Assembly: GCF_001294335.1 (NCBI RefSeq)
Contig: NZ_LGKG01000001.1
Span: 1 to 64,000, forward strand
Reading direction: 5' to 3'
From: Streptomyces chattanoogensis
Lineage (GTDB): Bacteria > Actinomycetota > Actinomycetes > Streptomycetales > Streptomycetaceae
Length of the DNA stretch: 64,000 nucleotides
Position 1 is the stretch's first letter, and the number at the start of each line of letters is the position of its first letter. The translations under genes were made by a program, and so were the position numbers. The notes under the pieces were generated by a model that searched no databases, was not told where the DNA came from, and saw only the letters and a list, made by a program, of their open reading frames with translations. Shown piece by piece: positions 12,312 through 63,897 of this stretch.

Positions 12312-12433
12312 GGCCGCCGCGGGCAGGTGGTGTCGCCGTGAGAGGTGCACGCTGGGTAAGGGGTGGTCCCGATATCCGGTCGTGACGAAACGCCTCGTGA
12401 CATCCGGCGATTCAGTCTCTAGGGTGCCTGAAT

Positions 12434-39500: not shown

Positions 39501-39802
39501 CCGAAGGCCGCCAGCGCCGCCACGCCCGCCACCACCGCCGGAGTGCCCAGCTCCTTGCGCGACAGCCGCTCGGCCAGCGGGCGCTGCCCGGCCCCGGCCT
39601 CGTCCAGCGCCCGCACATACGCGGTGTACTCCTCCGCCGCGCTGCCCGCGATGTCGTCCAGCGCCGCGCGCGCCCTGCCGAGCAGCACGCCCCCGTCGAG
39701 CCGCCCGCCCGGACGCCGAGCCTCCTCCTCCACGGCCCGCGCCACCAGCGCTTCCGCCTCCGCACGGTGCCCGTCACGCAGCACAGCCAGTGACCCCGGC
39801 AT
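36527..39802 (-). CDS. STAND NTPase: NB-ARC domain with TPR repeats
   Basis: A 1091-residue signal-transduction ATPase. Residues ~1-100 form a helical cap, and ~75-120 include a hydrophobic Ala/Gly-rich stretch that may be membrane-associated. The NB-ARC core begins near residue 220: Walker A G-E-P-G-S-G-R-T (~residue 262), Walker B V-T-V-L-L-D-D-A-S-D, and the C-A-G-L-P-L-A-L-R GLPL motif. A winged-helix region follows (~480-560), then about ten TPR repeats (~600-960; for example A-W-T-L-H-A-L-A-A-V and A-W-A-H-F-Q-L-G-Q-V-Y). Unlike SARP/AfsR proteins it has no DNA-binding N-terminus. ATG 39802 has GGAGGGGG upstream. The downstream effector is unknown. Confidence 0.88.
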   Translation of the reverse strand: MPGSLAVLRDGHRAEAEALVARAVEEEARRPGGRLDGGVLLGRARAALDDIAGSAAEEYTAYVRALDEAGAGQRPLAERLSRKELGTPAVVAGVAALAAFGTDLAYGTGAGAALGAGASVLLAGAGATVVKLAAGHLPAAHEQAGKRGQPGGLEQLRLQWLTALEVRGIRPFLDQQRMLAGARGGTASKAGGTTAAPGPQLRGADRSAAARQRSVLEHSFSQLPRSDGPFAGRRAELTQIAQWVHAARASTETKPTVVVLHGEPGSGRTALAVRAAHQLRDQFRGACVVDLRGDTPGEMPLPTRNALLHLLNRLGAPREQLLFRERTAQEQHVKRLTELYHQHVAGLPVTVLLDDASDPEQVRTLVPDRSDSLVLVTSREPLELPADLQAWVHQLPMGPLDAAGTEELLRAAGGAEEATAGTAGPYDAQAIEKISEQCAGLPLALRAAGSSLGSRTPSELAADLASYASATPVERALSLRYADQPEAARRLLRRLALVGRASLGAAAAAALLGVANAEAERQLTTLAGAGLIEHVRGRRYRLHALVHRFAYGRLTAEEAPEERVAAQERLIRGYAELADSVIRLVDGRTSTRADRFGSHGFTSLDAALQWLDDESSFITAALAHADQEVDQATVSHLLGALADYCLLRGDLYRLGELNDLTRAVGQGLLMRSVQWRTGVAARQLGELDKARTTLSSVVDLYFEAQHPAGAARALRDLGITLQQQGNLTEAAAKLREALEMQSGPDMHGDRAWTLHALAAVERDRAGIAEALALLREALELHEESESVHGQAWAHFQLGQVYLRMGEVPRAEESLHAALELYGRTQDERGEAWAMTQLARARLVAGDPDPAADRLRQALTLHQRHEDARGEAWTMYYLGQALEERGEQDAALRQLERSRTMFSRMQDGYGLACARHHSGRVTRDLRAAQTGSLRNSGFARQLLQDARKDFQRIAVPHGEAWSCLELVIIDAGNGRAAQALELADEAARIFAGYGDLRGEDWARFLRCTLLPFASLGGSVVGTAVAQEELAQLLRESHASRDGKLTECAEAFALLLERGVEPETGWQAWRLGMLPGRHAREVMGISVAPAAAD

Positions 39803-45120: not shown

Positions 45121-45172
45121 CGGGTGGGTGCTCTCGTTCTGTGGCAAGTCCTGTGACAAGGAGGCGAAGGCT

Positions 45173-47036: not shown

Positions 47037-47765
47037 ATGGCACAACAAGTCAGAGGGCTGAAGACCAGTCGCCTGATCGTCGAGACGGCGGCGCAGGTCT
47101 TCTGCGAGCGGGGGTACGAAGGGACGAGCACCACCGAAATCCTGTCCCGGTGTCATGTGACCAGGGGCGCGTTGTACTTTCACTTCGCCTCGAAGCAGGA
47201 CCTCGCCCTCGCGGTGCTCACGGAGGGGAGCGATGTCCTGCTGCCGTTGCGGCGCCGGCTGGTGCTGCAGAGCCTGATCGACTTCAGCCTGGAGTACGCG
47301 TACCGGCTGCAGACGGACGTGGTGACGCGCGCCTCCGTACGCCTGCGAACGGAGCTGGAGTACCAGGGCGCGGCGCTGCCCGAGGGGGGCGATGTGCGTG
47401 AGGTGATCCTGGGGCTGCTGCGCGAGGCGGAGAAGGCCGGCGAGATCGTGCCCAGCGCCGACCCCGGTGAGGTCGCGGATGTGCTGGTGGGGTCGTCCGC
47501 GTCCGTGAGCCTGTTCCGGGTGGGCCAGGAGTCCGGGCTGACCCGTCGCGTGGCCACGCTCTGGAGGTACCTGCTGCCCGCCGTGGCGGTTCCCGGGCTG
47601 CTGATGTCCCTGCAGCTCGTCCTGAACCAGGCCGAAACCCGGCTGCGGGAACGGCTCGCGGGGAGGCCCGCCGGGGGGCGGGGCGAAGAGGCGACCGACC
47701 CGCCGGCCGACGATCCGCAGGAAGCCCGCCCCGGCTGGGCGCGGCCCGCGACACTCATGGGCTGA
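47037..47765 (+). CDS. TetR-family regulator of the gamma-butyrolactone (pseudo-)receptor type
   Basis: A 242-residue protein. The N-terminal HTH reads T-A-A-Q-V-F-C-E-R-G-Y-E-G-T-S-T-T-E-I-L and V-T-R-G-A-L-Y-F-H-F-A-S-K, the exact plan of ArpA/ScbR/JadR2 proteins. The ligand domain (~residues 65-205) is less conserved, and a 35-residue charged tail follows. Its position between a pump and a JadR1-like regulator matches JadR2, a pseudo-receptor that represses jadR1 and responds to antibiotics. No butyrolactone synthase (afsA-like) gene is nearby, favouring pseudo-receptor over true receptor. ATG 47037 has GGAAGGTGAG upstream. Confidence 0.85.
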   Translation: MAQQVRGLKTSRLIVETAAQVFCERGYEGTSTTEILSRCHVTRGALYFHFASKQDLALAVLTEGSDVLLPLRRRLVLQSLIDFSLEYAYRLQTDVVTRASVRLRTELEYQGAALPEGGDVREVILGLLREAEKAGEIVPSADPGEVADVLVGSSASVSLFRVGQESGLTRRVATLWRYLLPAVAVPGLLMSLQLVLNQAETRLRERLAGRPAGGRGEEATDPPADDPQEARPGWARPATLMG

Positions 47766-48405: not shown

Positions 48406-49092
48406 ATGCGGGTATTAGTAGCGGAGCCTGATTGTGAATCCGCGAACTCACTCCGTCAGCACATGCGACGCCACGGATATGAGACGGAGATAGCCGATAC
48501 GGGCGCCGGCGCCCTGGGTTCCTACCAGGAATACGATCTCCTGATTCTTGATCTTGAGCTTCCCGATGTCGATGGGCTGCAGGTCTGCCGCAGCATACGC
48601 ACCACGAGCGACATACCCATTATCGCCTTCACCTCCCACGGCACCGAACTCGACCGGGTGCTGTGCCTTCAGGCGGGCTGCGACGACTGCCTCGTCAAGC
48701 CGTTCGGATTCCGCGAACTCGTCGCCCGGATCGAGGCGATCATGCGTCGTATCCGGCCGAGAGCCATGCGCAGCCGGCGCCTCTCCCACGGTCCACTGCA
48801 CATCGACCGGGACCGTCGCGAGGTCTATCTGCACGACACCCAGGTCAAGGTGACGCGCAAGGAGTTCGACCTTCTTCAGTTCCTGGCCTCGCAGCCGACG
48901 ACCGTGTTCTCACGGGAGCAGTTGATGACCGAGGTCTGGGGAGCGTCACTCCCCGGCGGAGCCCTGGGTTCCAATATCGCCCGCACCATCGACACGCACG
49001 TCGGAACCCTGCGCAACAAGCTTGGTTCAAGTGAATGGATCATCACCGTGCGCGGAGTCGGATTCCGGTTCGGCGGCGTACAACAGTGTTGA
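48406..49092 (+). CDS. JadR1-like atypical response regulator (OmpR type)
   Basis: A 228-residue regulator: receiver domain (residues 1-118) and winged-helix DNA-binding domain (~128-224, V-T-R-K-E-F-D-L-L-Q-F-L and I-I-T-V-R-G-V-G-F-R-F). Asp49, Thr76 and Lys98 are kept, but the acidic pocket reads A-E-P-D-C instead of an adjacent acidic pair, and no histidine kinase is nearby. This fits the JadR1/LndI group, which controls angucycline genes and senses end products. Codon 4 (48415-48417) is TTA, predicting strict bldA dependence. A start at 48343 would add 21 residues. Confidence 0.88.
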   Translation: MRVLVAEPDCESANSLRQHMRRHGYETEIADTGAGALGSYQEYDLLILDLELPDVDGLQVCRSIRTTSDIPIIAFTSHGTELDRVLCLQAGCDDCLVKPFGFRELVARIEAIMRRIRPRAMRSRRLSHGPLHIDRDRREVYLHDTQVKVTRKEFDLLQFLASQPTTVFSREQLMTEVWGASLPGGALGSNIARTIDTHVGTLRNKLGSSEWIITVRGVGFRFGGVQQC

Positions 49093-49229: not shown

Positions 49230-50105
49230 TCAGCGTTCCGTACGGGAGTCCTTCCGGTGGCTCAGAGCGCTCCGGACATCCGCCTCGGCGTAGTACGTCC
49301 GGCCGTCCTTCCGGTGGCGTTCCCACTTGTGCTGACTGGCCAGTCGGTAGACGCTGCCCGACGGAATGCCCCAGAGCCGCGAGACGGCCTGCGGGCTGAG
49401 CCAGCGCGGTGGGTGATTCCCCCCGTGCGCCGACTGCCCGGGGTGCCCGGGCTGCCTCATGCGTTCGCGCAGGTGGAGCCACTGGTGCTCCTCCCAGCGG
49501 TGCTCGGGGACCGCGTCGCAGCGGATACCGCGCCCCTCGGAGCGGCCGGTGTCCACCGTCGTGCTGAGCGTGCCGGGGCAGCCCGGTTCGACGCATCTGC
49601 CGACCGGCACCCGGCGCGGCTGGGCGGGGGAGGCGATCCGGCGCGCGGCCCGCTCCAGACGGCCGAGCTCGTACGAGAAGTCGGCGGCGGCCGGGTGGCG
49701 GCAGAGCCAGTCCAGGTGATGCTCCAGGAACATGGCCAGCGCCGGCACGGTCCGCCGCGGGGCGGTCAGCGTCCGCTCCCCGGCGACCAGGCCCGCCCAG
49801 CTTGCCAGCCCCCTCAGTACCGCGGACCGCGCCTCGACCGCGCGGCCGTTGAGCCGCATTCCGGGGAGCGGGCCGCCGGAGGTCTTCTCCTGCGGAGCGC
49901 GGGAACCGGTCAGCAGAAGGCCGCACTCCTCGTACAGCGCCGGGAGGTTCCGCAGGGCGGAGCGCAGCCCGGCCTGACAGCGCGGGCACAGCCGGTATCC
50001 GCTCGCCACCCGGCACGCGGCGCGTTCGGCGGTGTGCGTCTCCCTGCACGCGGTTCCCACGCACACGGTGGTCGTCGCGGCCGCACAGGATGTTTCCGTG
50101 GTCAT
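49230..50105 (-). CDS. Zn-ribbon/HTH protein of unknown function, divergent from the PKS operon
   Basis: A 291-residue soluble protein. Residues ~10-45 contain C-V-G-T-A-C, A-A-C-R and L-C-P-R-C, a probable zinc site. The centre (~60-170) is helical, followed by a second Cys pair region (R-C-V-E-P-G-C-P-G). Residues ~240-285 form a MerR/excisionase-like HTH: L-S-P-Q-A-V-S-R-L-W-G-I-P-S-G-S-V-Y. ATG 50105 follows GAGGGG. Similar proteins are common in Streptomyces and phages without known function. Its divergent position suggests, but does not prove, a regulatory link to the cluster. Confidence 0.65.
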   Translation of the reverse strand: MTTETSCAAATTTVCVGTACRETHTAERAACRVASGYRLCPRCQAGLRSALRNLPALYEECGLLLTGSRAPQEKTSGGPLPGMRLNGRAVEARSAVLRGLASWAGLVAGERTLTAPRRTVPALAMFLEHHLDWLCRHPAAADFSYELGRLERAARRIASPAQPRRVPVGRCVEPGCPGTLSTTVDTGRSEGRGIRCDAVPEHRWEEHQWLHLRERMRQPGHPGQSAHGGNHPPRWLSPQAVSRLWGIPSGSVYRLASQHKWERHRKDGRTYYAEADVRSALSHRKDSRTER

Positions 50106-50654
50106 CCACCGATTCCCCTCGTCGACTACTCCTTCAGCTAATGCGAACCCCGGAGCCGAAGGCAAGAAGTCCGTGGAATCTTTGCGGTCACCGTGCGATC
50201 TCCTCAAGCATTCCAAGTTTCTGCAAGCTGACGTCCTGTGGTGTGTGAAGTCCCGTCCGTGCCGTCACGCCAGGCTGTGGCCCCCATCACAAATTGTCAG
50301 TAAGTTGACGTTTCGCTGGCGCTCCACTGTCGATCCTGCCGGTCTCCTGGCTACTTGTTGTGCGGCTTTTGAAGGACTGGTGTTGATCTCTGTAGGTGGT
50401 AGCGAAGAAGCTATTCACTAACTTCCGATGCACTGTCTCCGCCGGCCTGGTCCGGTTTCCGCAGCGATTTCCTTTGCTTTCGCGCTGCCGTCACATGCAT
50501 GCCGGATCCCATCTGAGTGCGTTTCCCGAGAGGGAGACGCCACCTTCTTGCGCGGCACTTCCCAACGCCTTCTTTCCTTGGCGTGCGTGGCTGAGCGTGT
50601 CAGGTGAACCGCGTTCTCGGTGGAATCAGTTCGGACACGTTCAGGGAGAGATAT
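50106..50654. other. Divergent promoter region of the PKS operon
   Basis: No gene is supported. It should carry the rightward PKS promoter. TTGACG at 50305-50310 is the best -35, without a clear -10. CTACTTGTTG at 50351-50360 matches the left half of operator O2 at 9 of 10 bases, a possible half-site. The first PKS gene is preceded by GGGAGAG. Confidence 0.5.
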
Positions 50655-52145
50655 ATGGATGCATCTGTCATTGTCGTGGGCGCTGGTCCGGCCGGGCTGA
50701 TGCTCGCCGGGGAACTCCGTCTGGCGGGTACCGACGTCATCGTCCTGGAGCGGCTGCCCGCGCCCACCGGTGAATCGCGGGGACTGGGTTTCACCGCCCG
50801 CACGATGGAGGTCTTCGACCAGCGTGGTCTGCTGCCCAGGTTCGGCGAGATCGAGACCAGTGCCCAGGGCCACTTCGGCGGCCAGCCCGTGGACTTCTCG
50901 ATTCTCGACGGCGCGCACTACGGCGTGAAGGCCGTGCCGCAGTCGCGGACCGAGGCGATCCTGGAGGAGTGGGCGGCCGGGCTCGGCACGGACCTCCGAC
51001 GAGGCCACGAGGTCGTGTCGTTCACCGATGACGGTGAGGGTGTGGACGTCGAGGTGGCCGGCCCGGAGGGCACGTACACCCTGCGGACCCGGTTCCTGGT
51101 CGGCTGCGACGGCGGGCGCAGCACCATCCGCAAGTCCGGCGGCTTCGACTTCCCGGGCACCTCGGCGACCCGCGAGATGTTCCTGGCGGACGTGCGCGGT
51201 TGCGAGATCGAGCCCCGGCCGATCGGGGAGACGGTGGCACGCGGCATGGTGATGTCCGCGCCGCTCGGCGACGGGGTGGACCGCATCATCGTGTGCGAGC
51301 AGGGGGCCCCGCCGCGCCGGCGCACGGAACCGCCCGCCTACGAAGAGGTGGCGGCGGCCTGGCAACGGCTGACCGGGCAGGACATCTCGCACGGTGAGCC
51401 GGTGTGGGTCAGCGCGTTCGGCGACCCGGCCCGTCAGGTCACCGAGTACCGCCGGGGCCGGGTGCTGCTGGCCGGCGACTCGGCGCACGTGCACCTCCCG
51501 GCCGGCGGCCAGGGCATGAACGCCAGCATTCAGGACTCGGTGAACCTGGGGTGGAAGCTCGCGGCCGTGGTCGCAGGGCGGGCCCCGTTGAGCCTGCTCG
51601 ACACCTACCACTCCGAGCGGCACCCGGTCGGCCGCAGGCTCCTCATGAACACCAGTGCGCAGGGCAAGCTCTTCCTGAGCGGCGACGAGATGCAGCCGGT
51701 GCGGGACGTGCTCGCCGAGCTGATCCGCTACGACGTCGTCAGCCGTCACCTGGCCGGGATGGTCTCGGGGCTGGAGATCCGCTACGACGTGGGCGAGGGC
51801 GACCACCCGCTCCTCGGTATGCGCATGCCGCACCTGGAACTGGTCGTCGACGACACCAAGACGAGCAGCACCGAACTGCTGCACCCCGCCCGCGGCGTGC
51901 TGCTGGACCTGGCCGGTGACGCCGCGCTGCGCGCGAGCGCCGAGGGCTGGTCGGACCGGCTGACCATCGTGGCGGCCACCACGCACGAGGCCCCCGGCCA
52001 GGGCCGGTTGGCGGGCGCCACGGCGGTGCTCGTCCGGCCCGACGGATACGTCGCCTGGCTGGCGCCGGGGAGCACGGACTCGCTCGCCGCCTCCCTGGAG
52101 CGCTGGTTCGGTCCCGCGCGTGAACTCCCGAAGCAGAAAGGCTAA
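50655..52145 (+). CDS. FAD-dependent aromatic polyketide oxygenase (PgaE/UrdE-like)
   Basis: A 496-residue class A flavoprotein hydroxylase. The FAD dinucleotide motif is [12 protein letters not shown] (residues ~6-17), the second FAD motif [14 protein letters not shown] near residue 275, and the NADPH/FAD D-G motif V-G-C-D-G-G-R-S. The C-terminal thioredoxin-like domain (~395-490) lacks catalytic Cys. It is the first gene of the operon, as urdE and pgaE are, whose products hydroxylate C-12/C-12b of the angucycline. ATG 50655 is preceded by GGGAGAG. It starts only 2 bp before the cyclase. Confidence 0.92.
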
Positions 52146-52147
52146 TC

Positions 52148-52477
52148 ATGCACAGCACGCTGATCGTGGCGCGGATGGAGCCTGGTGCGAGCCAGGACGT
52201 CAGCCGTCTCTTCGCGTCCTTCGACGGCACCGAGATGCCGCACCTGATGGGGACCCGCCGCCGGCAGCTGTTCTCGTACCGCGGCCTGTACTTCCACCTC
52301 CAGGACTTCGAGTCCGACAACGGGGGCGAGCGCATCGAGGAGGCGAAGAGCGACCCGCGGTTCGTCCGGATCAGCGAGGACCTCAAGCCGTTCATCGAGG
52401 CGTACGACCCGGCTACCTGGCGTTCACCGGCCGACGCGATGGCGACCCGCTTCTACCACTGGCAGGCGGGCCAGTGA
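52148..52477 (+). CDS. TcmI/UrdF-family polyketide cyclase
   Basis: A 109-residue ferredoxin-fold cyclase. H-S-T-L-I-V-A-R-M near the N-terminus, [16 protein letters not shown] and D-P-R-F are conserved in TcmI, JadI and UrdF. In angucycline pathways this small cyclase helps close the angular fourth ring. GAAAGG precedes the ATG. Its TGA stop overlaps the KS-alpha start as GTGA. Confidence 0.92.
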
Positions 52478-53745
52478 CCGGGCGACGGGTCGCCGTCACC
52501 GGCATCGGAGTGCTGGCCCCAGGGGCTCTCGGTGTCAAGAACTTCTGGAGCCTGCTGAGCGAGGGCCGTACCGCCACCCGGGGCATCACGCTCTTCGACC
52601 CCGCCCCCTTCCGCTCGCGCGTCGCGGCCGAGATCGACTTCGATCCCGCCGCGCACGGTCTCGGCCCCCAGGACGTCCGGCGCATGGACCGCGCCGCCCA
52701 GTTCGCCGTGGTCGCGGCCCGCGAGGCCCTGGAGGACAGCGGACTGCACGACGGGGCGCTGGACCCGTACCGCACGGGAGTGACCATCGGCAGCGCCGTC
52801 GGCGCGACGATGAGCCTGGACGAGGAGTACCGCGTCGTCAGCGACGGCGGACGGCTCGAGCTGGTGGACCACACCTACGCGTCCCGGCACCTGTACGGCG
52901 CCTTCGTGCCCAGTTCGTTCGCCGCCGAGGTGGCCTGGGCGGTCGGCGCCGAGGGGCCGGCCTCGGTGGTGTCGACCGGCTGCACGTCCGGCCTGGATTC
53001 CGTCGGGTACGCCTGCGAGCTGATCCGGGAGGGTTCCGCCGACGTCATGATCGCCGGTGCGACGGAAGCCCCGATCTCGCCGATCACGGTGGCCTGCTTC
53101 GACGCGATCAAGGCCACCACCCCGCGCAACGACGAGGCCGCCCAGGCCTCTCGCCCGTTCGACGCCACGCGCAACGGCTTCGTCCTGGGCGAGGGGTCCG
53201 CGGTGTTCGTCCTGGAGGAGCTGGAGAGCGCGCGGCAGCGCGGGGCCGAGATCCACGCCGAGATCGCCGGCTACGGCACCCGCTGCAACGCCTTCCACAT
53301 GACCGGACTGCGGCCGGACGGCGCGGAGATGGCCGAGGCGATCCGGGTCGCGCTCGACGAGGCGCGGATGACCGCCGAGGACATCGACTACGTCAACGCG
53401 CACGGGTCGGGCACCAAGCAGAACGACCTGCACGAGACCGCCGCCGTCAAGCGGAGCCTGGGCGAGCACGCGTACCGGACCCCGATCAGCTCCATCAAGT
53501 CGATGGTCGGCCACTCCCTGGGGGCCATCGGCTCGATCGAGATCGCCGCCTCCGTGCTGGCGATGAAGCACGACGTCGTACCGCCCACAGCCAACCTGCA
53601 CACCCCCGATCCGCAGTGCGACCTGGACTACGTACCGCTGGTCGCCCGCGACTGGGGGACCGACACGGTGCTGACCGTGGGCAGCGGATTCGGGGGATTC
53701 CAGAGCGCCATGGTGCTCACCGGGCCCGAGAGGAGAACGGCATGA
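52474..53745 (+). CDS. Type II PKS ketosynthase alpha
   Basis: A 423-residue beta-ketoacyl synthase. Active-site Cys170 is in [10 protein letters not shown]; the two catalytic His are in [11 protein letters not shown] and [10 protein letters not shown]. It condenses malonyl extender units with the chain-length factor to build the poly-beta-ketone. GTG 52474 is fixed by the 4-base overlap with the cyclase stop; it ends in an ATGA overlap with the CLF gene, giving equimolar synthesis of the KS/CLF heterodimer. Confidence 0.97.
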
Positions 53746-54965
53746 CGGCGCCCGTCGTGGTGACCGGCATCGGCGTCACGGCACCCAACGGACTGGGCAC
53801 AGGCCCGTACTGGGAGGCCACCCGGATCGGCCGCAGCGGCATCGGCCGCATCAGCCGGTTCGACCCGAGCCCCTACCCGTCCCGGCTCGCCGGCGAGGTT
53901 CCGGGGTTCAACGCCGAGGAGCACCTGCCGAACCGGCTGCTGCCGCAGACCGACCGCATGACGCGCCTGGCGCTGGTGGCCGCGGACTGGGCGCTGGCCG
54001 ACGCCGGCATCAAGCCCGCCGAACTGCCCGAGTTCGACATGGGAGTGGTCACCGCCAGCGCGTCCGGCGGCTTCGAGTTCGGGCAGAACGAACTGCGGGC
54101 GCTGTGGAGCAAGGGCGGGCAGTACGTGAGCGCCTACCAGTCCTTCGCCTGGTTCTACGCCGTCAACTCCGGGCAGATCTCGATCCGTAACGGGATGAAG
54201 GGCCCCAGCGGCGTGCTGGTCAGCGACCAGGCGGGCGGCCTGGACGCGATCGCCCAGGCACGCCGGCAGATCCGCCGGGGAACCCGCCTGATCGTCTCGG
54301 GCGGTGTGGACGCCTCGATCTGCTCCTGGGGCTGGGTCGCCCAGCTGACCAGCGAACGGATCAGCACCAGCGAGGACCCCGACCGTGCCTATCTTCCCTT
54401 CGACCGCGAGGCGCGCGGCCATGTGCCCGGTGAGGGCGGTGCCCTGCACATCCTGGAGGACGGCGAGTCCGCACGGGAGCGCGGGGCGCGGATCTACGGC
54501 GAGATAGCGGGCTACGGCTCCACCTTCGACCCCGGCCCCGGCAGCGGGCGCCCGCCCGGCCTGCGCAGGGCCATCCAACTCGCCCTGGACGACGCCGGGA
54601 TGGTGCCCGACGAGGTGGACGTGGTCTTCGCGGACGCCGCCGCCGTACCGGAGCTGGACCGCATCGAAGCCCAGGCGGTCTCGGGCGTCTTCGGCCGCCG
54701 GGGCGTACCGGTCACCGCACCCAAGACGATGACCGGCCGGCTGTACTCCGGCGGGGCCCCGCTCGACCTGGCCGCGGCCCTGCTGGCCATCCGCGACGGC
54801 CTGATCCCCCCGACGCCCAACGTCACACCGGATCCCGCGTACCAGATCGACCTGGTGACCCGGGCGCGTCCCGCGAGCGTGCGGGCCGCCCTGGTGGTGG
54901 CACGTGGCCACGGCGGGTTCAACTCCGCCCTGATCGTGCGCGCGCCCCAGGCGGGCGGCGTCTGA
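53742..54965 (+). CDS. Type II PKS chain-length factor (KS beta)
   Basis: A 407-residue KS-like protein in which the active-site Cys is replaced by Gln163 (V-S-D-Q-A-G-G-L-D), the hallmark of the chain-length factor. It pairs with KS-alpha, decarboxylates malonyl-ACP for priming and sets chain length. In angucycline systems this is a decaketide. The exact length cannot be read without aligning the gate residues. It overlaps KS-alpha by ATGA. Confidence 0.97.
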
Positions 54966-54998
54966 CACAGCTGACCGAACCCTGACAGGAGTGACATC

Positions 54999-55262
54999 GT
55001 GAACGAGATCTTCACCCTCGACGACCTGCGCCGGATCCTGCGCGAGGGAGCGGGCACCGCCGAGGGGACCGACCTCGACGGCGACATCCTCGACGCCGGC
55101 TTCGAGGAGCTGGGGTACGAGTCCCTGGCCCTGCTGGAGACCGCCAGCCGCATCGAGCGCGAATACGACATCGCGCTCGACGACACCGCCCTGGCCGACG
55201 CCAGGACCCCGCGGGACCTGCTGGAGGCCGTCAACGCCCGCCTGCGGGCGTCCGCCGCCTGA
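54999..55262 (+). CDS. Type II PKS acyl carrier protein
   Basis: An 87-residue ACP. The phosphopantetheine Ser42 lies in E-L-G-Y-E-S-L-A-L-L, an accepted variant of the G-Y-D-S-L motif; the protein is acidic, as ACPs are. It carries the growing chain. GTG start preceded by ACAGGAGTG. No PPTase gene is in the visible cluster, so an external PPTase must act on it. Confidence 0.96.
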   Translation: MNEIFTLDDLRRILREGAGTAEGTDLDGDILDAGFEELGYESLALLETASRIEREYDIALDDTALADARTPRDLLEAVNARLRASAA

Positions 55263-55349
55263 TCCGCCGGCGCCGTGCCGACGCGGGGCCGACGCCCGCC
55301 TTCGGTCCCCGCACGGCGCCGCCCCCTCGTACACCTGCATTGGAGAGAC

Positions 55350-56135
55350 ATGTCGAACCACGAGCGCCGGGTCGCCCTCGTCACGGGCGGCACCAGCGGC
55401 ATCGGCCTGGCCGTCATCCGGCTGCTGGCCGCCCAGCACCACCGCGTCTACTTCTGCGCCCGCAGCGCCGAGAACGTGGCCGCCACCGTCAAGGAGCTGC
55501 GCGCCGAGGGCCTGGAGGTGGACGGCACCGACTGCGACGTCCGTTCCCCCGACGACGTGCGGCGGTTCGTACAGGCCGCCGTGGACCGCTACGGCACCAT
55601 CGACATCCTGGTCAACAACGCGGGCCGCAGCGGCGGAGGCCCCACGGCGGACATCACGGACGAGCTGTGGCTCGACGTCATCGACACCAACCTCCACAGC
55701 GTCTTCCGGATGACCCGCGAGGTGCTGACCAGCGGCGGTATGCGCGACAAGAGCAGCGGGCGGATCATCAACATCGCCTCCACGGCGGGCAAGCAGGGCG
55801 TCGTCCTCGGCGCCCCCTACTCCGCGTCCAAGCACGGGGTGGTCGGCTTCACCAAGGCGCTGGGCAACGAGCTGGCGCCCACCGGCATCACCGTCAACGC
55901 GGTCTGCCCGGGCTACGTCGAGACGCCGATGGCGCAGCGCGTGCGGCAGGGCTACGCCGCCGCCTACGACACCGACGAGGCGCAGATCCTCCAGAAGTTC
56001 CAGGCCAAGATCCCGCTCGGCCGCTACTCCACCCCCGAAGAGGTCGCCGGCCTCGTGGGCTACCTGGTCACCGACACGGCCGCCTCGATCACCGCCCAGG
56101 CCCTCAACGTCTGCGGCGGCCTGGGCAACTTCTGA
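55350..56135 (+). CDS. Polyketide C-9 ketoreductase (ActIII/UrdD-like SDR)
   Basis: A 261-residue short-chain reductase. NADPH motif T-G-G-T-S-G-I-G-L-A-V (~residues 13-23), N-N-A-G, catalytic Ser and Y-S-A-S-K, and a C-terminal A-L-N-V-C-G-G-L-G-N-F. The residues G-G-P-T-A and P-G-Y-V-E-T-P-M are shared with ActIII, which reduces C-9 of the nascent chain and guides first-ring folding. ATG 55350 follows GGAGAG. Confidence 0.95.
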   Translation: MSNHERRVALVTGGTSGIGLAVIRLLAAQHHRVYFCARSAENVAATVKELRAEGLEVDGTDCDVRSPDDVRRFVQAAVDRYGTIDILVNNAGRSGGGPTADITDELWLDVIDTNLHSVFRMTREVLTSGGMRDKSSGRIINIASTAGKQGVVLGAPYSASKHGVVGFTKALGNELAPTGITVNAVCPGYVETPMAQRVRQGYAAAYDTDEAQILQKFQAKIPLGRYSTPEEVAGLVGYLVTDTAASITAQALNVCGGLGNF

Positions 56136-56206
56136 CCCGGCCGGGCCCACCGCCCCGGCACCCGGAACACCGCCGCCGCACGGAGCAGCCAAGAAGGAGA
56201 CAGCAC

Positions 56207-57157
56207 ATGCCGCAGACCGCTCTGCGCGAAGTGGAGCACGACATCACGATCTCGGCCCCGGCCGCCGACGTCTACCGGCTGCTCGCCGAGGTCGGGAACT
56301 GGCCGCAGATCTTCCCGCCCACCCTCCACGTCGAACAGCTGGAAAGCACCGGGAACCAGGAGCGCATCCGGATCTGGGCCACCGCCGGCGACGAGGCCAA
56401 GAGCTGGACCTCGCGCCGCACGCTCGACCCCGTGGCCCGGCGCATCGACTTCCGCCAGGAGGTGTCCGCCCCTCCGGTGGCATCCATGGGCGGGGCGTGG
56501 ATCATCGAGGAGCTCGCTCCCGAGAAGTCCCGGGTGCGGCTCCTGCACGACTACCGGGCCGTGGACGACGACCCCGAGGGCCTGGCGTGGATCGACCGCG
56601 CGGTCGACCGCAACTCGCGCTCGGAACTGGCGGCGCTGCGCGTCAACATCGAGCAGGTGCACGCCCGCCGGGAGCTGACCTTCTCGTTCGAGGACAGCGT
56701 GCGCATCGACGGTTCCGCCGAGGACGTCTACGCGTTCATCGACGAGGCCCAGCTCTGGTCCGAGCGGCTGCCGCACGTGGCGTCCGTACGCCTGGAGGAG
56801 GACACCCCCGGGCTGCAGACCCTGGAGATGGACACCCGCGCCAAGGACGGCTCCACGCACACGACCAGGTCGTACCGGGTCTGCCTCCCGCACCACAAGA
56901 TCGCCTACAAGCAGACCACGCTGCCCGCGCTGATGACGCTGCACACCGGCCGCTGGACGTTCCACGAGGAGGCCGGCACCGTCATCGCCACCTCGCAGCA
57001 CACGGTGACCGTCAACACCGACAACATCTCCGCCGTCCTCGGACCGGACGCCGGAGTCGCTCAGGCCCGGGAGTACCTGCGCGGGGCGCTGGGCGCCAAC
57101 AGCCGGGCCACCCTCGGCCACGCCAAGGACCACGCCGAACGGCGCCGCCGGCCATGA
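56207..57157 (+). CDS. Didomain aromatase/cyclase (UrdL/JadD type)
   Basis: A 316-residue protein with two START/Bet-v1-like domains (~residues 5-150 and 160-305). Each begins with the same pattern: E-H-D-I-T-I-S-A-P-A-A-D-V-Y in the first and F-E-D-S-V-R-I-D-G-S-A-E-D-V-Y in the second. Didomain forms aromatise the first ring of chains reduced at C-9, matching the presence of the ketoreductase. ATG 56207 follows AAGAAGGAGA. Its stop overlaps the next oxygenase as ATGA. Confidence 0.95.
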   Translation: MPQTALREVEHDITISAPAADVYRLLAEVGNWPQIFPPTLHVEQLESTGNQERIRIWATAGDEAKSWTSRRTLDPVARRIDFRQEVSAPPVASMGGAWIIEELAPEKSRVRLLHDYRAVDDDPEGLAWIDRAVDRNSRSELAALRVNIEQVHARRELTFSFEDSVRIDGSAEDVYAFIDEAQLWSERLPHVASVRLEEDTPGLQTLEMDTRAKDGSTHTTRSYRVCLPHHKIAYKQTTLPALMTLHTGRWTFHEEAGTVIATSQHTVTVNTDNISAVLGPDAGVAQAREYLRGALGANSRATLGHAKDHAERRRRP

Positions 57158-58692
57158 CGGCACCGGGCATCGACACCCAGGTCCTCGTGGTGGGCGCGGG
57201 CCCCGTCGGGCTGATGCTCGCCGGCGAGCTGCGGCTCGGCGGGGCCGGTGTCACCGTGCTGGAACAGCTGGCCGCGCCGACCACGGAATCCCGGGCGTCC
57301 ACCCTCCACGCCCGCACCATGGAGATACTCGAACAGCGGGGCCTGGCCGAGGAGTTGGGCGATCCGCCGAACGGCGGTCCCGGTCACTTCGGAGGCATCG
57401 CGCTGGACCTCACGCTGCCCGGCCCCTACCCGGGGCAGTGGAAGGTGCCCCAGGCCCGGACCGAGGAGCTCCTCGCCGGATGGGCCACCGGGCTGGGCGC
57501 CGAGCTACGCCGTGGACACCGGGTGGTGGGCATCACCGACCGCGGGGACCACGTCGAGGTGGAGGTGGAGGTGGCGGCGGCGACGCCGCCATCGGCGGGC
57601 GGCGGTGGCCCGACGTCGCGCCGCCTCCGCGCGCAGTACGTCGTCGGGTGCGACGGCGAGGAGAGCATCGTCCGGCGGCTGGCCGGCTTCCCGTTCCCCG
57701 GGGAGGACGCGACCAAGGAGCTGCTGCGGGCCGACATCGCCGGAATCGACGTTCCCAACCGCCGTTTCGAACGGCACCCCCGCGGCCTGGCCATCGCCTC
57801 CCGCGGCCCCACGGGCATCACCCGGGTCATGGCCCACGGCTACGGCACCCCCGCCCGGCCCCGCACCGAGGCTCCCTCCTTCGAGGAGGTGACCCGCCTG
57901 TGGGCGGACATCACCGGCGAGGACATCTCCGGCGGCACACCGGTGTGGCTGAACGCCTTCGGCAACGCGCGCCGGCAGGTCTCCCGGTACCGCATGGGCC
58001 GCGTCCTGCTGGCCGGGGACGCCGCCCACCGGCAGATGCCCGTGGGCGGCCAGGCGCTCAACTTGGGCCTCCAGGACGCCGTCAACCTCGGCTGGAAGCT
58101 CGCCGCGCACCTGCGCGGCACCGGACTGCTCGACAGCTACCACGCCGAGCGCCACCCGGTGGGGCGGCGGGTACTGGGCAACATCGCCGCCCAGGCGCTG
58201 CTGCTCCTGGGCGGCCAGGACGTCGAGGAGCTGCGGTCGGTCTTCCGCGGGCTGATCGGGCTGCCGGAAGCGCGCGCCCACCTGGCGGGCATGATCAGCG
58301 GACTGGACGTCCGCTACGACATGGCGGGTGGCGGCGAAGGCGAACACCCGCTGCTGGGCGCCCGGTTGCCCGCGTACCGGCTGCACACGGCGGCCGGACC
58401 GGCCGGCACCCTCGGGTTGCTGCGGTCCGGCCGGGGCGTCCTGCTGGATCTCGGCAAAGACCCCGCGCTCGCCGCGGCCGCGCGGCGGTGGGCGGACGGC
58501 CGCGTAACCCACGTCCGGGCCGAGGCCGAACCCGGCTGCCGGGGCCCGGAGTTCGGTGCGGCACTGGTCCGCCCGGACGGCCACCTCGCCTGGATCGACG
58601 GCACACCGGCCGACCTGGACGCGGCCCTGCGCCGCTGGTTCGGCGCGCCCAACCCGGGCACCGGCACGCCGGCACCACGACACCGGGCCTGA
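57154..58692 (+). CDS. FAD-dependent polyketide oxygenase (oxygenase part of UrdM/PgaM)
   Basis: A 512-residue class A flavoprotein with V-V-G-A-G-P-V-G-L-M-L-A, V-G-C-D-G-E-E-S and R-V-L-L-A-G-D-A-A-H-R-Q-M-P. It is paralogous to the first oxygenase but carries Q-M-P-V-G-G-Q-A-L-N-L-G. Unlike UrdM and PgaM it has no C-terminal SDR domain; it ends at the thioredoxin-like domain. The missing reductase is encoded separately just downstream. A Gly-rich insertion (~residues 145-155) is unusual. It likely acts after or with the first oxygenase in C-12/C-12b or C-2,3 chemistry. Confidence 0.9.
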   Translation: MTAPGIDTQVLVVGAGPVGLMLAGELRLGGAGVTVLEQLAAPTTESRASTLHARTMEILEQRGLAEELGDPPNGGPGHFGGIALDLTLPGPYPGQWKVPQARTEELLAGWATGLGAELRRGHRVVGITDRGDHVEVEVEVAAATPPSAGGGGPTSRRLRAQYVVGCDGEESIVRRLAGFPFPGEDATKELLRADIAGIDVPNRRFERHPRGLAIASRGPTGITRVMAHGYGTPARPRTEAPSFEEVTRLWADITGEDISGGTPVWLNAFGNARRQVSRYRMGRVLLAGDAAHRQMPVGGQALNLGLQDAVNLGWKLAAHLRGTGLLDSYHAERHPVGRRVLGNIAAQALLLLGGQDVEELRSVFRGLIGLPEARAHLAGMISGLDVRYDMAGGGEGEHPLLGARLPAYRLHTAAGPAGTLGLLRSGRGVLLDLGKDPALAAAARRWADGRVTHVRAEAEPGCRGPEFGAALVRPDGHLAWIDGTPADLDAALRRWFGAPNPGTGTPAPRHRA

Positions 58693-58767
58693 ACCGGTCC
58701 GCCCCTCGGGCGGCCGGCGGGGACTTCCCCCAGGCCCCACCACACCACACCCCTACAGGAGGACACC

Positions 58768-59529
58768 GTGACCAAGCTTGCGGGCAAGACGGCACTCGTG
58801 ACCGGTTCGAGCCGGGGCATCGGGCGGGCGACCGCCGAGCGTCTGGCGCGTGAGGGCGCGCTCGTCGCCGTGCACTACGCCTCCCGGGCCGAGGCCGCCC
58901 AGGAGACCGTCGCCGCCATCGAGGCGGCCGGTGGCAAGGCGTTCGCCGTCCAGGCCGAACTGGGCGTCGCGGGCGATGTCGACACGCTGTTCGGGGCCCT
59001 GGAGAGCGGCCTGAAGGAACGTACCGGCGGCACCGCCCTGGACATCCTGGTCAACAACGCCGCGATCATGGGCGGTGTCGCCCCCGAAGAGGTCACCCCC
59101 GAACTCTTCGACCGGCTGGTCGCCGTCAACGCCAAGGCGCCGTTCTTCATCCTGCAGCGTGCCCTCACCCTCATGCCCGACGGCGGCCGCGTCATCAACA
59201 TCTCCTCCGGGCTCACCCGCTTCGCCAACCCGCAGGAAGTGGCGTACTCGATGACCAAGGGGGCCGTCGAACAGCTCGCGCTGCACTTCGCCAAGCACCT
59301 CGGCCCGCGCGGCATCACCGTCAACAGCGTCGCCCCGGGCATCACCAACAACGGCAGCCCGGTGTTCGACATCCCGGAGGCCGTGGAGCAGATGGCCCAG
59401 ATGTCCACCTTCGGCCGGGTGGCCGAGCCCAGGGACGTCGGCGACGTGGTGGCCTTCCTCGCCTCGGACGACGCCCGCTGGATCACCGGTGCCTTCATCG
59501 ACGCCAGCGGTGGCACGTTGCTGGGCTGA
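58768..59529 (+). CDS. LanV-like angucycline ketoreductase (SDR)
   Basis: A 253-residue SDR. T-G-S-S-R-G-I-G-R-A-T (NADPH), N-N-A-A-I-M-G-G, catalytic Ser and Y-S-M-T-K, and the family-specific V-A-P-G-I-T-N-N-G-S-P. The closest known group is LanV/CabV and the reductase half of PgaM/UrdM, which reduce C-6 of the angucycline. GTG 58768 is fixed by a perfect ACAGGAGGACACC. It is a separate gene 75 bp after the oxygenase, so the oxygenase and reductase need not be equimolar here. Confidence 0.9.
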   Translation: MTKLAGKTALVTGSSRGIGRATAERLAREGALVAVHYASRAEAAQETVAAIEAAGGKAFAVQAELGVAGDVDTLFGALESGLKERTGGTALDILVNNAAIMGGVAPEEVTPELFDRLVAVNAKAPFFILQRALTLMPDGGRVINISSGLTRFANPQEVAYSMTKGAVEQLALHFAKHLGPRGITVNSVAPGITNNGSPVFDIPEAVEQMAQMSTFGRVAEPRDVGDVVAFLASDDARWITGAFIDASGGTLLG

Positions 59530-59639
59530 CGTCCGCCCGCGGCGCCCGACCCGTGCGCCGCGCCCCCGACCGGCCGGTCGCGGTGATCCCCGCATCGCGG
59601 CCGGCCCTGTCCCGACCGAACCCCTGGCGGTGCATCTCC

Positions 59640-60935
59640 ATGGCGCAGGCCTCGGCCTCCTCCTCACCCTCGGCTCCGGCGACCCACGCGGGGCAGGGCC
59701 CCGTCCGCTGGCGGCCGGGCCAGTGGCTGCTGCTGAGCGTCCTCGCGGGCAACATGCTCATCGACGCGCTCGAAGTCTCGGTCGTCCTCGTCACCCTGCC
59801 GACGATCGGCCACGCCTTCCACCTCTCGACGTGGGCCACACAGTGGGTGATGGGCGGTTTCGCGCTCGGCTTCGGCGCGGCGCTGATCCCCGGCGCCCGG
59901 CTGACCACCGCGCTGGGACGGCGACCGGTCTACCTCACCGCGCTGCTCGCGTTCACCGCCGCCTCCCTGGCGGGCGGCCTGGCCACCGACCCGGTGGTGC
60001 TGACAGTCACCCGGGTCGTCAAGGGCGTGTGCGCCGCGCTCACCGCCCCCACCGGGCTGGCCATCATCACCACCACCTTCCGCGAAGGCCCCGAGCGCAG
60101 CCGGGCGATCTCGGTCTACTCGTTCTTCGGAGCCATCGGCTTCACGGCCGGACTCCTGCTCTCCGGCCTGCTGACACCGGCCGGCTGGCGCTGGGTCTTC
60201 CTCTTCCCGGCCCCCGTGGCGCTGCTGCTGCTCCTGCTCGGCGTGCGGTACATCCCCCGCGACGGCAGGCGCGTCCCGTCGCCCGCCGTGCCGCTGCGCC
60301 GGCTGCTGCGCAACGGGCGGCTGATGCGGTCGGCGCTCGGCGCGGCGGTGCTCAACGGCACGTTCCTGGGGCTGCTGTTCATCGTCACGTTCCGGCTTCA
60401 GACGGTCCGGGGCTGGACACCGTGGGGGACCGCGCTGGCCTTCCTGCCGGCCTGCGTTCCGCTCGCGGTCTCCGCGCTGCGCTCGGGGCCGCTGGTGCGG
60501 CGCTTCGGCACACCCCGGCTGATCGCGCTGGGCGCCGCCGCCGCGTGCGCCGGCGACGTGCTGGCGCTGCGCACGGCCGCCCTGGACGCGCCGTACCCGA
60601 CCGGTCTGCTGCCCGTCACGGCGCTGGTCGGGGCGGGCTTTGTCTTCGCGTTCGTGGCCCTGAACACGCAGGCGGGCGGGAGCGTTCCGGCGGAGCAGCG
60701 GGGTACCGCCATCGCCCTGTACCAGACCGCCGTGCAGTTCGGCGCGGTGCTGATGCTGGGTTCGGTGTCGGCGCTGCTGGCCGCCGGCCACCCCGGGCGG
60801 GCGGTCGGGGCCGACGCGCTCGCCGCCGCGTACCGCCCGCCCCTGCTGCTGGTCGCCGCGGTCGCCGCCGCGGGCCTGCTGATCGCACTGGGCGGCCTCG
60901 TCGCGGCCGGCTCCCGCCGCCGCCCACCACGCTGA
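59640..60935 (+). CDS. MFS exporter (cluster-associated)
   Basis: A 431-residue MFS transporter with about 12 or more helices; motif A region G-A-R-L-T-T-A-L-G-R-R-P is diverged from G-x-x-D-R-x-G-R. A 35-residue polar N-terminus precedes the first helix. ATG 59640 is chosen; a GTG at 59553 has no ribosome site. Located inside the biosynthetic run, it is the most probable dedicated exporter of the product or an intermediate. It is the third MFS gene in the accessory segment. Confidence 0.85.
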   Translation: MAQASASSSPSAPATHAGQGPVRWRPGQWLLLSVLAGNMLIDALEVSVVLVTLPTIGHAFHLSTWATQWVMGGFALGFGAALIPGARLTTALGRRPVYLTALLAFTAASLAGGLATDPVVLTVTRVVKGVCAALTAPTGLAIITTTFREGPERSRAISVYSFFGAIGFTAGLLLSGLLTPAGWRWVFLFPAPVALLLLLLGVRYIPRDGRRVPSPAVPLRRLLRNGRLMRSALGAAVLNGTFLGLLFIVTFRLQTVRGWTPWGTALAFLPACVPLAVSALRSGPLVRRFGTPRLIALGAAAACAGDVLALRTAALDAPYPTGLLPVTALVGAGFVFAFVALNTQAGGSVPAEQRGTAIALYQTAVQFGAVLMLGSVSALLAAGHPGRAVGADALAAAYRPPLLLVAAVAAAGLLIALGGLVAAGSRRRPPR

Positions 60936-60968
60936 CCCGCACCGTCCCCGACCATGGAAGGCGCCCCT

Positions 60969-62141
60969 GTGACCGCGCAACCGATCACCACGTCCAGGCT
61001 CCCCTCACTCACCGGACTGCGGTTCATCGCCGCTGCCCTGGTGTTCGCCGTCCACGGGGCGAGCACCGGGGTCTTCAAGGACCAGGCCGTGGCGGCGGAC
61101 TACTTCACGTTCTTCGGGAACGCGGGGGCCGTCGGCGTGTCGTTCTTCTTCCTCCTCAGCGGGTTCGTGCTCACCTGGTCGGCGCGGACCGGGGACAGCG
61201 CCCGGCGGTTCTGGCGGCGCCGCTTCTTCAAGATCGTCCCCAACCACGTGGTGACCTTCGCCGCCGCCCTCGTGCTGATGTCCCTGGTCAGCGCGCAGAT
61301 CGCGTTCCCGCAGACGCTCGCCAACCTGTTCCTGCTGCACGCCTGGCTGCCGGACGTCTCCTATGTGGAGACCGCCAACACGGTCAGCTGGTCTCTGTCC
61401 GTGGAGATGCTCTTCTACCTGGCGTTCCCGCTGCTGATCCGGCTGGTGAACAAGGTCCGGCCGAACCGGCTGTGGTACGGGGCGGCGGGCGCCGCGGCGC
61501 TGGTCCTGGTCCTGCCGGTCATCGCCCAGCACCTGCTGCCCGGCACCCCGCACTACTCCTTCCTGCCGGTGTCGTGGACGCAGGTCTGGTTCGTCTACGT
61601 CTTCCCGCTCAGCCGCCTGCTGGAGTTCCTGCTCGGGATGTTCATGGCCCGCATCCTGCTGACCGGCCGGTGGCCCGGGCTCGGCCTGCTGCCGGCCGGG
61701 CTGCTGGCCGTGGCCGCCTACCTGCTGCCGGTCTTCGTGACGTTCAACCAGCTCTACAACTACGCTGCCGTCACGGTCGTCCCGCTCGCGCTGCTCATCC
61801 CGGCTGCCGCCGCGGCGGACGTCAGGGGGCGCCGGACCTGGCTGAGCACCCGGACGTTCGTCTGGCTCGGTGAGATCTCCTTCGCCTTCTACCTCGTCCA
61901 CTCCCTGGTGCTGACGTACGGGCACCGGATCTTCGGCTCGCAGCCCAACATCTTCGGGCAGCCCACCGGCCCGGCCTGGGGCGCCCCGGCCGGCCTCGCC
62001 TTCCTCGCCGGCTGCTTCGCGGTGTCGGTGCTCCTGGCGTGGGGGCTGTACGCGCTCCTCGAGCGGCCCGCGATGCGCCGCTGGTCGCGGCCGGCCCGGG
62101 CCGCCTCGGGCGCCCGCGCCGGCGTGGCAGCGGACGCCTGA
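60969..62141 (+). CDS. Membrane acyltransferase, AT3/OafA family
   Basis: A 390-residue membrane enzyme with about ten helices: L-T-G-L-R-F-I-A-A-A-L-V-F-A-V-H-G contains the catalytic His region, F-F-F-L-L-S-G-F-V-L-T and S-W-S-L-S-V-E-M-L-F-Y are AT3 signatures. Such enzymes transfer acetyl or longer acyl groups from cytoplasmic acyl-CoA to sugars or polyketides during export, as in macrolide 3-O- or 4''-acylation. GTG 60969 is preferred over ATG 60954 because GAAGGC precedes it. Its presence predicts an O-acylated product, unusual in known angucyclines. Confidence 0.88.
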   Translation: MTAQPITTSRLPSLTGLRFIAAALVFAVHGASTGVFKDQAVAADYFTFFGNAGAVGVSFFFLLSGFVLTWSARTGDSARRFWRRRFFKIVPNHVVTFAAALVLMSLVSAQIAFPQTLANLFLLHAWLPDVSYVETANTVSWSLSVEMLFYLAFPLLIRLVNKVRPNRLWYGAAGAAALVLVLPVIAQHLLPGTPHYSFLPVSWTQVWFVYVFPLSRLLEFLLGMFMARILLTGRWPGLGLLPAGLLAVAAYLLPVFVTFNQLYNYAAVTVVPLALLIPAAAAADVRGRRTWLSTRTFVWLGEISFAFYLVHSLVLTYGHRIFGSQPNIFGQPTGPAWGAPAGLAFLAGCFAVSVLLAWGLYALLERPAMRRWSRPARAASGARAGVAADA

Positions 62142-62204
62142 CCCGCCCCTTCCCACCCTCGGTTCTCTTCCCGGTTCGTCTCACTACAGAAGGAATTCAA
62201 CGCC

Positions 62205-62792
62205 ATGTCCGAACAGCCCATCCGCCTCGCCGTCATCACCGGCAGTGTCCGCGACGGCCGGTTCGGCCCCACCGTGACCGACTGGATCACCGCCCAGACG
62301 GCGCACCGCACCGACCTCGACGTGGACGTCATCGACCTCGCGGACGTCCCGCTGGGAACGGCGGGCCCCACCCGTGAGCCCTCGCCCGAGATGACCGCGG
62401 TCCTGGACACGATCCGTCCGCGCATCGCCGCGGCGGACGCCTTCGTCGTGGTGACGCCGGAGTACAACCACAGCTTCCCGGCCGTCCTGAAGAACGCCAT
62501 CGACTGGCACCTGGTGGAGTGGCGGGCCAAGCCGGTCGGGTTCGTCTGCTACGGCGGCTTCTCCGGCGGGCTGCGCGCCGTCGAGCAGCTCCGGCTGGTC
62601 TTCGCGGAGCTGCACGCCGTCGGTATCCGGGACACCGTCAGCTTCCACGGCGGTGCCGCTGCCTTCGACGAGAACGGCACGCCCAGGGACGCCGAGGGCG
62701 CCGCCGCGGCCGCCAAGACCCTGCTGGACCAGCTCACCTGGTGGGCGCTGGCCCTGCGCGAGGCCCGCGACAAGCGCCCGTACGGGGCCTGA
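62205..62792 (+). CDS. NAD(P)H-dependent FMN reductase
   Basis: A 195-residue flavodoxin-fold reductase. FMN phosphate loop G-S-V-R-D-G-R-F (~residues 11-18) and the second FMN/active-site motif T-P-E-Y-N-H-S-F-P are intact, followed by A-I-D-W-H. It supplies reduced FMN, or reduces quinones. In angucycline clusters flavin reductases support ring-opening or hydroxylating oxygenases; here no FMN-dependent oxygenase is visible within the window. ATG 62205 is preceded by GAAGGAATTC. Confidence 0.9.
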   Translation: MSEQPIRLAVITGSVRDGRFGPTVTDWITAQTAHRTDLDVDVIDLADVPLGTAGPTREPSPEMTAVLDTIRPRIAAADAFVVVTPEYNHSFPAVLKNAIDWHLVEWRAKPVGFVCYGGFSGGLRAVEQLRLVFAELHAVGIRDTVSFHGGAAAFDENGTPRDAEGAAAAAKTLLDQLTWWALALREARDKRPYGA

Positions 62793-62844
62793 GCACAGCC
62801 GACGGAACGGGAGCCGGAGCGCCGAGGGAGAGGGCCACGCGACG

Positions 62845-63897
62845 ATGAAGTACACGATGTTGGGAAAGACCGGGCTACGGGTGTCGGAACTGTGCCTGGG
62901 CGCCGGGACGTTCGGCGAGGACGAGTGGGGGGCCGCCACCCCGGTGGCGTCCCGGCTGGTCGACCAGTACGCCGAGGCCGGCGGCAACTTCGTCGACACC
63001 GCCAACGTCTACGGCGGCGGGCTGTCGGAGCGCTGCGTCGGCGAGGTGCTGTCAGGGCGGCGCGACCGCTTCGTCCTGGCGACGAAGTACAACGCGATGA
63101 CCCGGCCGGGGGACGTCAACTCCGCGGGAAACCACCGGAAGAACCTGGTCAGCTCGCTGGAGACCAGCCTGCGCCGGCTGCGCACCGACCGGATCGACCT
63201 GCTCTGGCTGCACGCCCGCGACCCCTTCACCCCGGTCGAGGAGGTCATGCGGGCGCTCGACGACCAGATCCGGGCCGGCAAGATCCTCTACGTCGGCGCC
63301 TCCAACTGGCCGGCCTGGGAGGTCTCGCGGGCCAACATGCTCGCCGAGCTGCGCGGCTGGTCGGCCTTCGCCGGGATCCAGGTGCGCTACAACCTCCTGG
63401 AGCGCACCCCGGAACGCGAGCTGCTTCCCATGGCCGGGGCGTGCGACGTCAGCGTGTTCGCCTGGGGCCCGCTGGCGGAGGGCCGGCTGACCGGCAAGTA
63501 CCTCCGCAGCGAGAGCGGGCGCCTGAGCGTGGAGAACTGGGCCGGCGACAGTGAACGGGACACCGCGGTCGTCCGCGAGGTCGTCAGGATCGCCGAGGAG
63601 GGCGGCTGGACCCCGGCGCAGGTCGCCCTGGCCTGGCTGCGCGGCCGCCCCGCACAGCCGCTGCCCATCCTCGGCGCCACCCGGGAGTCCCAGCTCGCGG
63701 ACACCCTGGCCTGCCTCGACGTCCGCCTCGACGAGGCGCAGACCAGGCGGCTGGACGAGCTGAGCCAGGTGCCGATGGGCTTCCCGAACGAACTGATGCG
63801 GGTGCCCAAGTTCACCCGCAACGCCTTCTCGGACCGCTGGCAGGACCTGGAGCACCGCCGCCCCGCCGCCCGTACCGTCGCCGACTTCCTCGGATGA
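62845..63897 (+). CDS. Aldo/keto reductase
   Basis: A 350-residue AKR with a TIM-barrel. V-D-T-A-N-V-Y-G-G-G carries the catalytic Asp and Tyr, A-T-K-Y the Lys, and L-W-L-H-A-R-D the His. The NADPH-binding I-L-G-A-T-R-E-S-Q lies near the C-terminus. Length is typical of the potassium-channel beta-like group. Possible roles are reduction of a polyketide ketone or a deoxysugar 4-ketone elsewhere in the cluster. ATG 62845 follows GAGGGAGAGGG. Confidence 0.88.
   Translation: MKYTMLGKTGLRVSELCLGAGTFGEDEWGAATPVASRLVDQYAEAGGNFVDTANVYGGGLSERCVGEVLSGRRDRFVLATKYNAMTRPGDVNSAGNHRKNLVSSLETSLRRLRTDRIDLLWLHARDPFTPVEEVMRALDDQIRAGKILYVGASNWPAWEVSRANMLAELRGWSAFAGIQVRYNLLERTPERELLPMAGACDVSVFAWGPLAEGRLTGKYLRSESGRLSVENWAGDSERDTAVVREVVRIAEEGGWTPAQVALAWLRGRPAQPLPILGATRESQLADTLACLDVRLDEAQTRRLDELSQVPMGFPNELMRVPKFTRNAFSDRWQDLEHRRPAARTVADFLG

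Follow-up and report, generated by a model that had tools for sequence, protein, structure and literature searches.

The window analysed here, positions 1-64000 of a contig of 749,976 bases (NZ_LGKG01000001.1) from Streptomyces chattanoogensis, holds the first part of a type II polyketide synthase (PKS) gene cluster, and the question raised by this locus is whether its product is a new angucycline. A preliminary description of the stretch 50655-63897 had reported an angucycline gene order followed by an acylation/reduction tail foreign to known angucyclines. According to our data, this is a real, ordinary angucycline cluster that is very probably already known, with its products and its activator published. 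With a probability of roughly 0.85 it is the chattamycin (cha, KM264312) cluster of the S. chattanoogensis-type strain, recognized by strain and layout and not by alignment.

All the genes described in the 50655-63897 stretch are open and stand in the order given, the first starting with the ATG at 50655 and the last ending with the stop at 63897, and they make up about one third of the cluster. On the contig the cluster spans about 45.1-86.3 kb, with regulators and a transporter in the left flank from about 45.1 kb and with deoxysugar genes, six glycosyltransferases and a cytochrome P450 to the right, up to 86.3 kb (Table 1); therefore, the tail is the middle of the cluster and not its end. 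The genes considered foreign, encoding a short-chain dehydrogenase/reductase (SDR), a major facilitator superfamily (MFS) exporter, an AT3-family acyltransferase, a flavin mononucleotide (FMN) reductase and an aldo-keto reductase (AKR), run into deoxysugar and glycosyltransferase genes past the window edge. The odd tail is thus explained as the front of a sugar/tailoring region that was cut by this edge.

The combination is rare, which is what favours the idea of a new angucycline whose acylation/reduction tail is unusual. Related named loci were collected by a scan with the chain-length factor (CLF), keeping the best 80 of 575, each as a piece that reaches at most 10 kb to either side of the CLF; contig ends interrupt many of these pieces. 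In none of these 80 loci do AT3, FMN reductase and AKR occur together; an FMN reductase gene stands directly behind the MFS gene in eight, and AT3 is present in two and AKR in one. AT3 relatives at E<=1e-60 occur in 131 of 392 genomes of the genus, that of the window included (with up to four candidates scored per genome), and those with at least 66% identity only in the window's own genome and in those that we call G311, G175 and G115. However, the tail is not confined to this strain, since the run MFS-AT3-FMN reductase-AKR-4,6-dehydratase is also present in G311 and G115, and in G175 AT3 directly follows the MFS gene on a contig that ends just beyond it. AT3 is 97% identical in G311, 69% in G175 and 68% in G115, each time directly after the MFS gene; an AT3 entry with 97% identity bears the name Streptomyces sp. 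BHT-5-2. Taking into account also that the tail continues into the sugar region and that acetylated angucyclines with published clusters are described, namely warkmycin (PMC5797532, PMC6163593) and rubiginone N, with an acyltransferase gene in its cluster (PMC8487521), a new angucycline of this kind is highly improbable.

The angucycline class of the cluster is supported by minimal PKS active sites that are intact, as the preliminary description had stated (motifs in Table 1), and by the conserved order of ketoreductase (KR), didomain aromatase/cyclase and small cyclase, which are accompanied by two flavin adenine dinucleotide (FAD) oxygenases of the PgaE/UrdM type. The core order cyclase, ketosynthase (KS), CLF, acyl carrier protein (ACP), KR, aromatase/cyclase and oxygenase is found in 65 of the 80 named loci, which bears out the angucycline type assigned to it. 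With the first oxygenase in front it is found in 46, with the SDR added in 39, and with the MFS gene behind the SDR in 33. Since the order is kept in 65 loci for the core and in 33 from the first oxygenase through SDR and MFS, this layout is not a matter of chance. The 109-residue cyclase, for which no NCBIfam match was found at E<=1e-10, lies between the first oxygenase and KS-alpha, directly adjoining them, in 46 of the 80 loci. Smaller residues at the CLF gate allow longer chains; they are F/G/L in the window, as in 82 of 85 rows compared, and F/T/F in the actinorhodin CLF, so the gate would fit a chain longer than that of actinorhodin.

Both oxygenases match CabE and PgaE best among solved structures, and the SDR matches 4osp best. 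The structures 4osp and 4kwh are listed as an oxygenase-reductase and a reductase homolog, and we take them to be UrdMred and LanV, respectively. As 4osp scores above 4kwh, the SDR is better described as UrdMred-like than as LanV-like, the name it had been given. A loop of the SDR bears on stereochemistry, and it reads APGITNNGS in the window, GPGITNNGT in 4osp and APGSTDNGS in 4kwh. Opposite configurations are reported to result from LanV and from CabV/UrdMred (PMC5321127). UrdM is described as a fused oxygenase-reductase (PMC9260717), whereas the second oxygenase and the reductase are separate genes here.

In a tree of KS plus CLF with 83 rows, the window, G311, G115 and G175 form one clade, with a Shimodaira-Hasegawa-like approximate likelihood ratio test (SH-aLRT) value of 95. 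The rows are relatives picked by likeness to the window CLF, without named tetracycline or spore-pigment references, and two long branches were dropped: L016, which has a doubtful KS match on a contig that starts at the CLF, and L012, the sole spore-pigment-like row, with the gate G/G/L as opposed to F/G/L in the window. Landomycin was considered as the closest cluster and rejected. The locus of the landomycin strain S. globisporus 1912 (L048) resembles the window cluster in its core order, in a nearby FMN reductase and 4,6-dehydratase, and in an OmpR-type regulator (56% identity), but there is no AT3 in the piece compared, the SDR match is only 48% and its KS/CLF fall in another clade. The rubiginone locus (L045) was also rejected; it has the core and an FMN reductase in common, and the piece compared showed no AT3 or AKR of this kind.

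The identification with chattamycin comes from the strain and from the layout. S. lydicus A02, with 97.4% average nucleotide identity (ANI) to S. chattanoogensis NRRL ISP-5002, is reported to hold a chattamycin cluster as its cluster no. 37 (PMC5567329), and chattamycins A and B were obtained from S. chattanoogensis L10 by overexpression of the pathway activator (PMC11766693). Chattamycin B is described with sugars at C-9 and C-1, the positions that are glycosylated in warkmycin too (PMC6163593). In KM264312, chaI is placed near the domain-free chaP, and this regulator family is also described (PMC8910723). The window cluster is like the cha cluster of L10 in its angucycline class and in having an OmpR-type regulator beside a gene for a domain-free protein, which are presumed to be ChaI and ChaP. 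The window CLF and its database cluster P0001 are equal in 404 of 407 residues.

By the terms of the preliminary description, an identical characterised cluster would refute its reading, and the chattamycin cluster is most likely such a one. Some points weigh against this identity, which stands on strain and layout. Pairs like OmpR/ChaP are common in angucycline loci, with matches to the two proteins in 25 and 21 of 81 loci searched, respectively, and are thus weak evidence. One more type II PKS cluster is described in A02, and L10 has no orthologues of it (PMC5567329); the passages found in the chattamycin literature do not mention an acyl group. Moreover, in the first KS/CLF tree, of 85 rows with both long branches in, the window was not grouped with G115 and G175.

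Comparison with further genomes places the cluster close to that of warkmycin. All 31 genes searched are present in G311 at 95-100% protein identity (the G311 stretch begins inside the domain-free gene, and the comparison covers that gene rightward), and 27 of the 31 in G115 at 54-84%. In warkmycin, C-9 bears olivose-olivomycose-amicetose, C-1 a carbamoylated 5-epi-oleandrose and C-4 an acetoxy group (PMC6163593), and the warkmycin cluster (BGC0001438, from Streptomyces sp. CS057) is described with four glycosyltransferases and an OmpR-type regulator (PMC5797532). In G115 there are three extra genes, encoding a DegT-family protein (3,4-dehydratase-like by eye), a C-methyltransferase and a carbamoyltransferase, and two of its proteins are identical in 395 of 397 and 394 of 395 residues to entries named S. 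anulatus. A cluster 97% similar to that of warkmycin is listed for a strain from the S. anulatus branch (PMC8866825). Because the extra genes are needed by the warkmycin structure, and given the likeness to S. anulatus, G115 reads as a warkmycin cluster.

Common to the window cluster and G115 are AT3, FMN reductase, AKR, P450, four glycosyltransferases, the 3,5-epimerase-like gene and an O-methyltransferase. Only the window cluster has GT1, GT6, 46DHb and 4KRc, which have no separate counterpart in G115 among the 31 genes searched. GT1 and GT4 resemble a recent duplication by eye, and only one of them has a separate counterpart in G115 (L010:10467-18228, beyond the window). A rough ratio of nonsynonymous to synonymous substitution rates (dN/dS) against G115 is at most 0.60 in 33 of 35 genes, with dS above 1 in three. 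The two exceptions, 4KRc and GT6, are without true counterpart, for GT1 and 46DHb the comparison is with a paralogue, and the Methyltransf_19 row extends one codon past the stop and the regulator row starts before the ATG. Against G311 the ratios are partly higher (MFS 0.79, GT1 0.75, AKR 0.70, P450 0.61), on few changes.

The genes for the warkmycin sugars, that is for the amicetose 3,4-dehydratase, the olivomycose C-methyltransferase and carbamoylation, are all missing from the cluster studied here. In the rest of the genome, carbamoyltransferase relatives reach at best 34% (shorter pieces up to 56%), the C-methyltransferase has one relative, at 31%, and a search without positive control gave no match to the DegT-family gene. 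Because the cluster has no C-methyltransferase, carbamoyltransferase or DegT-family gene, its sugars are expected to be of the 6-deoxy or 2,6-dideoxy type and to lack the modifications of G115, unless a distant carbamoyltransferase acts in trans. It could be argued from these differences, together with the 27 genes in common, that this is a cluster of the warkmycin family distinct from cha, with the same backbone and tailoring, other sugars and a product of its own. However, the strain points to a chattamycin-bearing group, and the genome contains no more than two type II KS/CLF pairs, the other of which looks like that of a spore pigment, judging by its CLF gate. A separate cluster of the warkmycin type is therefore unlikely. 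The second type II set, L012 (C152:126001-146000), comprises KS, CLF, ACP and a 158-residue cyclase at 9204-12489.

Taking the cluster as that of chattamycin, a pathway can be proposed in which the OmpR-type activator, presumed to be ChaI, would turn the cluster on. The minimal type II PKS, with the ketoreductase, the aromatase/cyclase and the small cyclase, would make an angucycline decaketide, which the two FAD oxygenases and the UrdMred-like SDR would oxidise and reduce; assembly of a decaketide and its angular cyclisation are what these enzyme families imply. The six glycosyltransferases would attach deoxysugars, whose biosynthetic genes lie at about 62.8-84.9 kb. Hydroxylation by the P450 and acetylation by AT3 are probable, and C-4, the acetoxylated position of warkmycin, may be where both occur. 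The C-4 hydroxyl of rubiginones is reported to be made by a P450, RubN1 and RubN2 being assigned to C-2 and C-4 (PMC8487521). Since P450 and AT3 are common to the warkmycin-like cluster, whose product is 4-acetoxylated, and since a rubiginone P450 makes a C-4 hydroxyl, hydroxylation at C-4 by the P450 and acetylation there by AT3 are our best guess. O-acylation of the product is plausible, and AT3 may acylate a sugar instead. From the comparison with the warkmycin-like cluster come assignments that can be tested for the P450, for AT3 and for the genes of sugar modification, and the roles of the FMN reductase, the AKR and each glycosyltransferase are likewise putative. What the data show directly is the gene content, its order, the angucycline class and the conservation in other genomes. 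More tentatively, the cluster may also make unrecorded chattamycin congeners, with the P450/AT3 pair acting at C-4 and GT1 and GT6 extending the sugar chains, although this is doubtful; no record of such congeners was found in the literature searched.

For AT3, no relative was found among solved structures at E<=0.001 and no NCBIfam match at E<=1e-10, and our literature searches found nothing joining angucycline, O-acyltransferase, glycosyltransferases and deoxysugar. A role of the P450 as a glycosyltransferase activator was considered and is not supported, as the protein has the heme-ligand motif and scored 129 bits, far short of the cut-off of 343 for that family.

Table 1. Genes of the angucycline cluster, with positions on the contig; the window ends at 64000.
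Feature	Position	Strand	Basis or remark
MFS exporter, cluster left end	45128..46831, start provisional	+	PF07690; 58% in G115, 62% in G175, there also upstream of first oxygenase
TetR-family regulator	47037..47765	+	PF00440; 53% in G175, not found in G115
OmpR-type response regulator, presumed ChaI (pathway activator)	48406..49092	+	PF00072 and PF00486
Domain-free protein, presumed ChaP (Aur1O homologue)	49230..50216, start provisional	-	No Pfam match at E<=1e-5
FAD oxygenase 1 (PgaE/CabE type)	50655..52145	+	Best solved structure CabE 2qa2, 867.8 bits
Small polyketide cyclase, 109 aa	52148..52477	+	Open frame; named by place and conservation
KS-alpha	52474..53745	+	PF00109/PF02801; STGCTSG
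KS-beta / CLF	53742..54965	+	Best solved structure actinorhodin CLF 1tqy_B; VSDQAGG
ACP	54999..55262	+	PF00550; serine in GYESLA
Polyketide ketoreductase (SDR)	55350..56135	+	PF00106; directly 3' of ACP in the 65/80 core-order loci
Didomain aromatase/cyclase	56207..57157	+	Two stretches each of PF10604 and PF03364
FAD oxygenase 2, reductase not fused	57154..58692	+	PF01494 and PF21274; best solved structures CabE/PgaE, 443.8 and 442.9 bits
SDR ketoreductase, UrdMred/CabV type	58768..59529	+	4osp 419.6 bits, 4kwh 379.4 bits
MFS exporter	59553..60935	+	PF07690
Membrane-bound AT3-family O-acyltransferase	60954..62141	+	PF01757
NADPH-dependent FMN reductase	62205..62792	+	PF03358
AKR, first sugar-region gene	62845..63897	+	PF00248; 81% in G115, 4,6-dehydratase next
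4,6-Dehydratase	starts 64058		Beyond window edge
2,3-Dehydratase	65078		
Gfo/Idh/MocA reductase	66484		
Methyltransf_19 gene	67482		
TetR gene	68333	-	
P450	69145		Heme-ligand motif FGRGAHFCMG
Glycosyltransferase	70467		
Thymidylyltransferase	71852		
Epimerase-family gene	72835		
Four glycosyltransferases	74561-79389		
3,5-Epimerase-like gene	79671		By eye
TylF-like methyltransferase	80490		
Second 4,6-dehydratase-like gene	81339		
Two further epimerase-family genes	82504, 83942		
Sixth glycosyltransferase	85064-86314		

Of the four left-flank genes, three are found ahead of the first oxygenase in G115 and G175 alike, and the TetR gene in G175 only. The helicase gene to the left of the MFS gene at 45128 has no match in the G115 stretch searched. 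Further to the left, a 1091-residue protein with an AAA/NB-ARC-type ATPase match and TPR repeats is encoded at 36527-39802 (minus strand), and an aromatic amino acid lyase family gene (PF00221, 12434-13978) adjoins a GGDEF gene (11067-12311), both within 11067-13978 on the plus strand. Elsewhere in the same genome, the locus L114 (C171:1-18000) encodes a type I PKS loader of ligase-ACP-KS-AT (AT, acyltransferase) organization, a P450 and a sugar aminotransferase-family protein, with a ferredoxin-like frame recognized by eye. Its order is presumably that of natamycin, and the locus fits a natamycin-type polyene, as expected of a natamycin producer.

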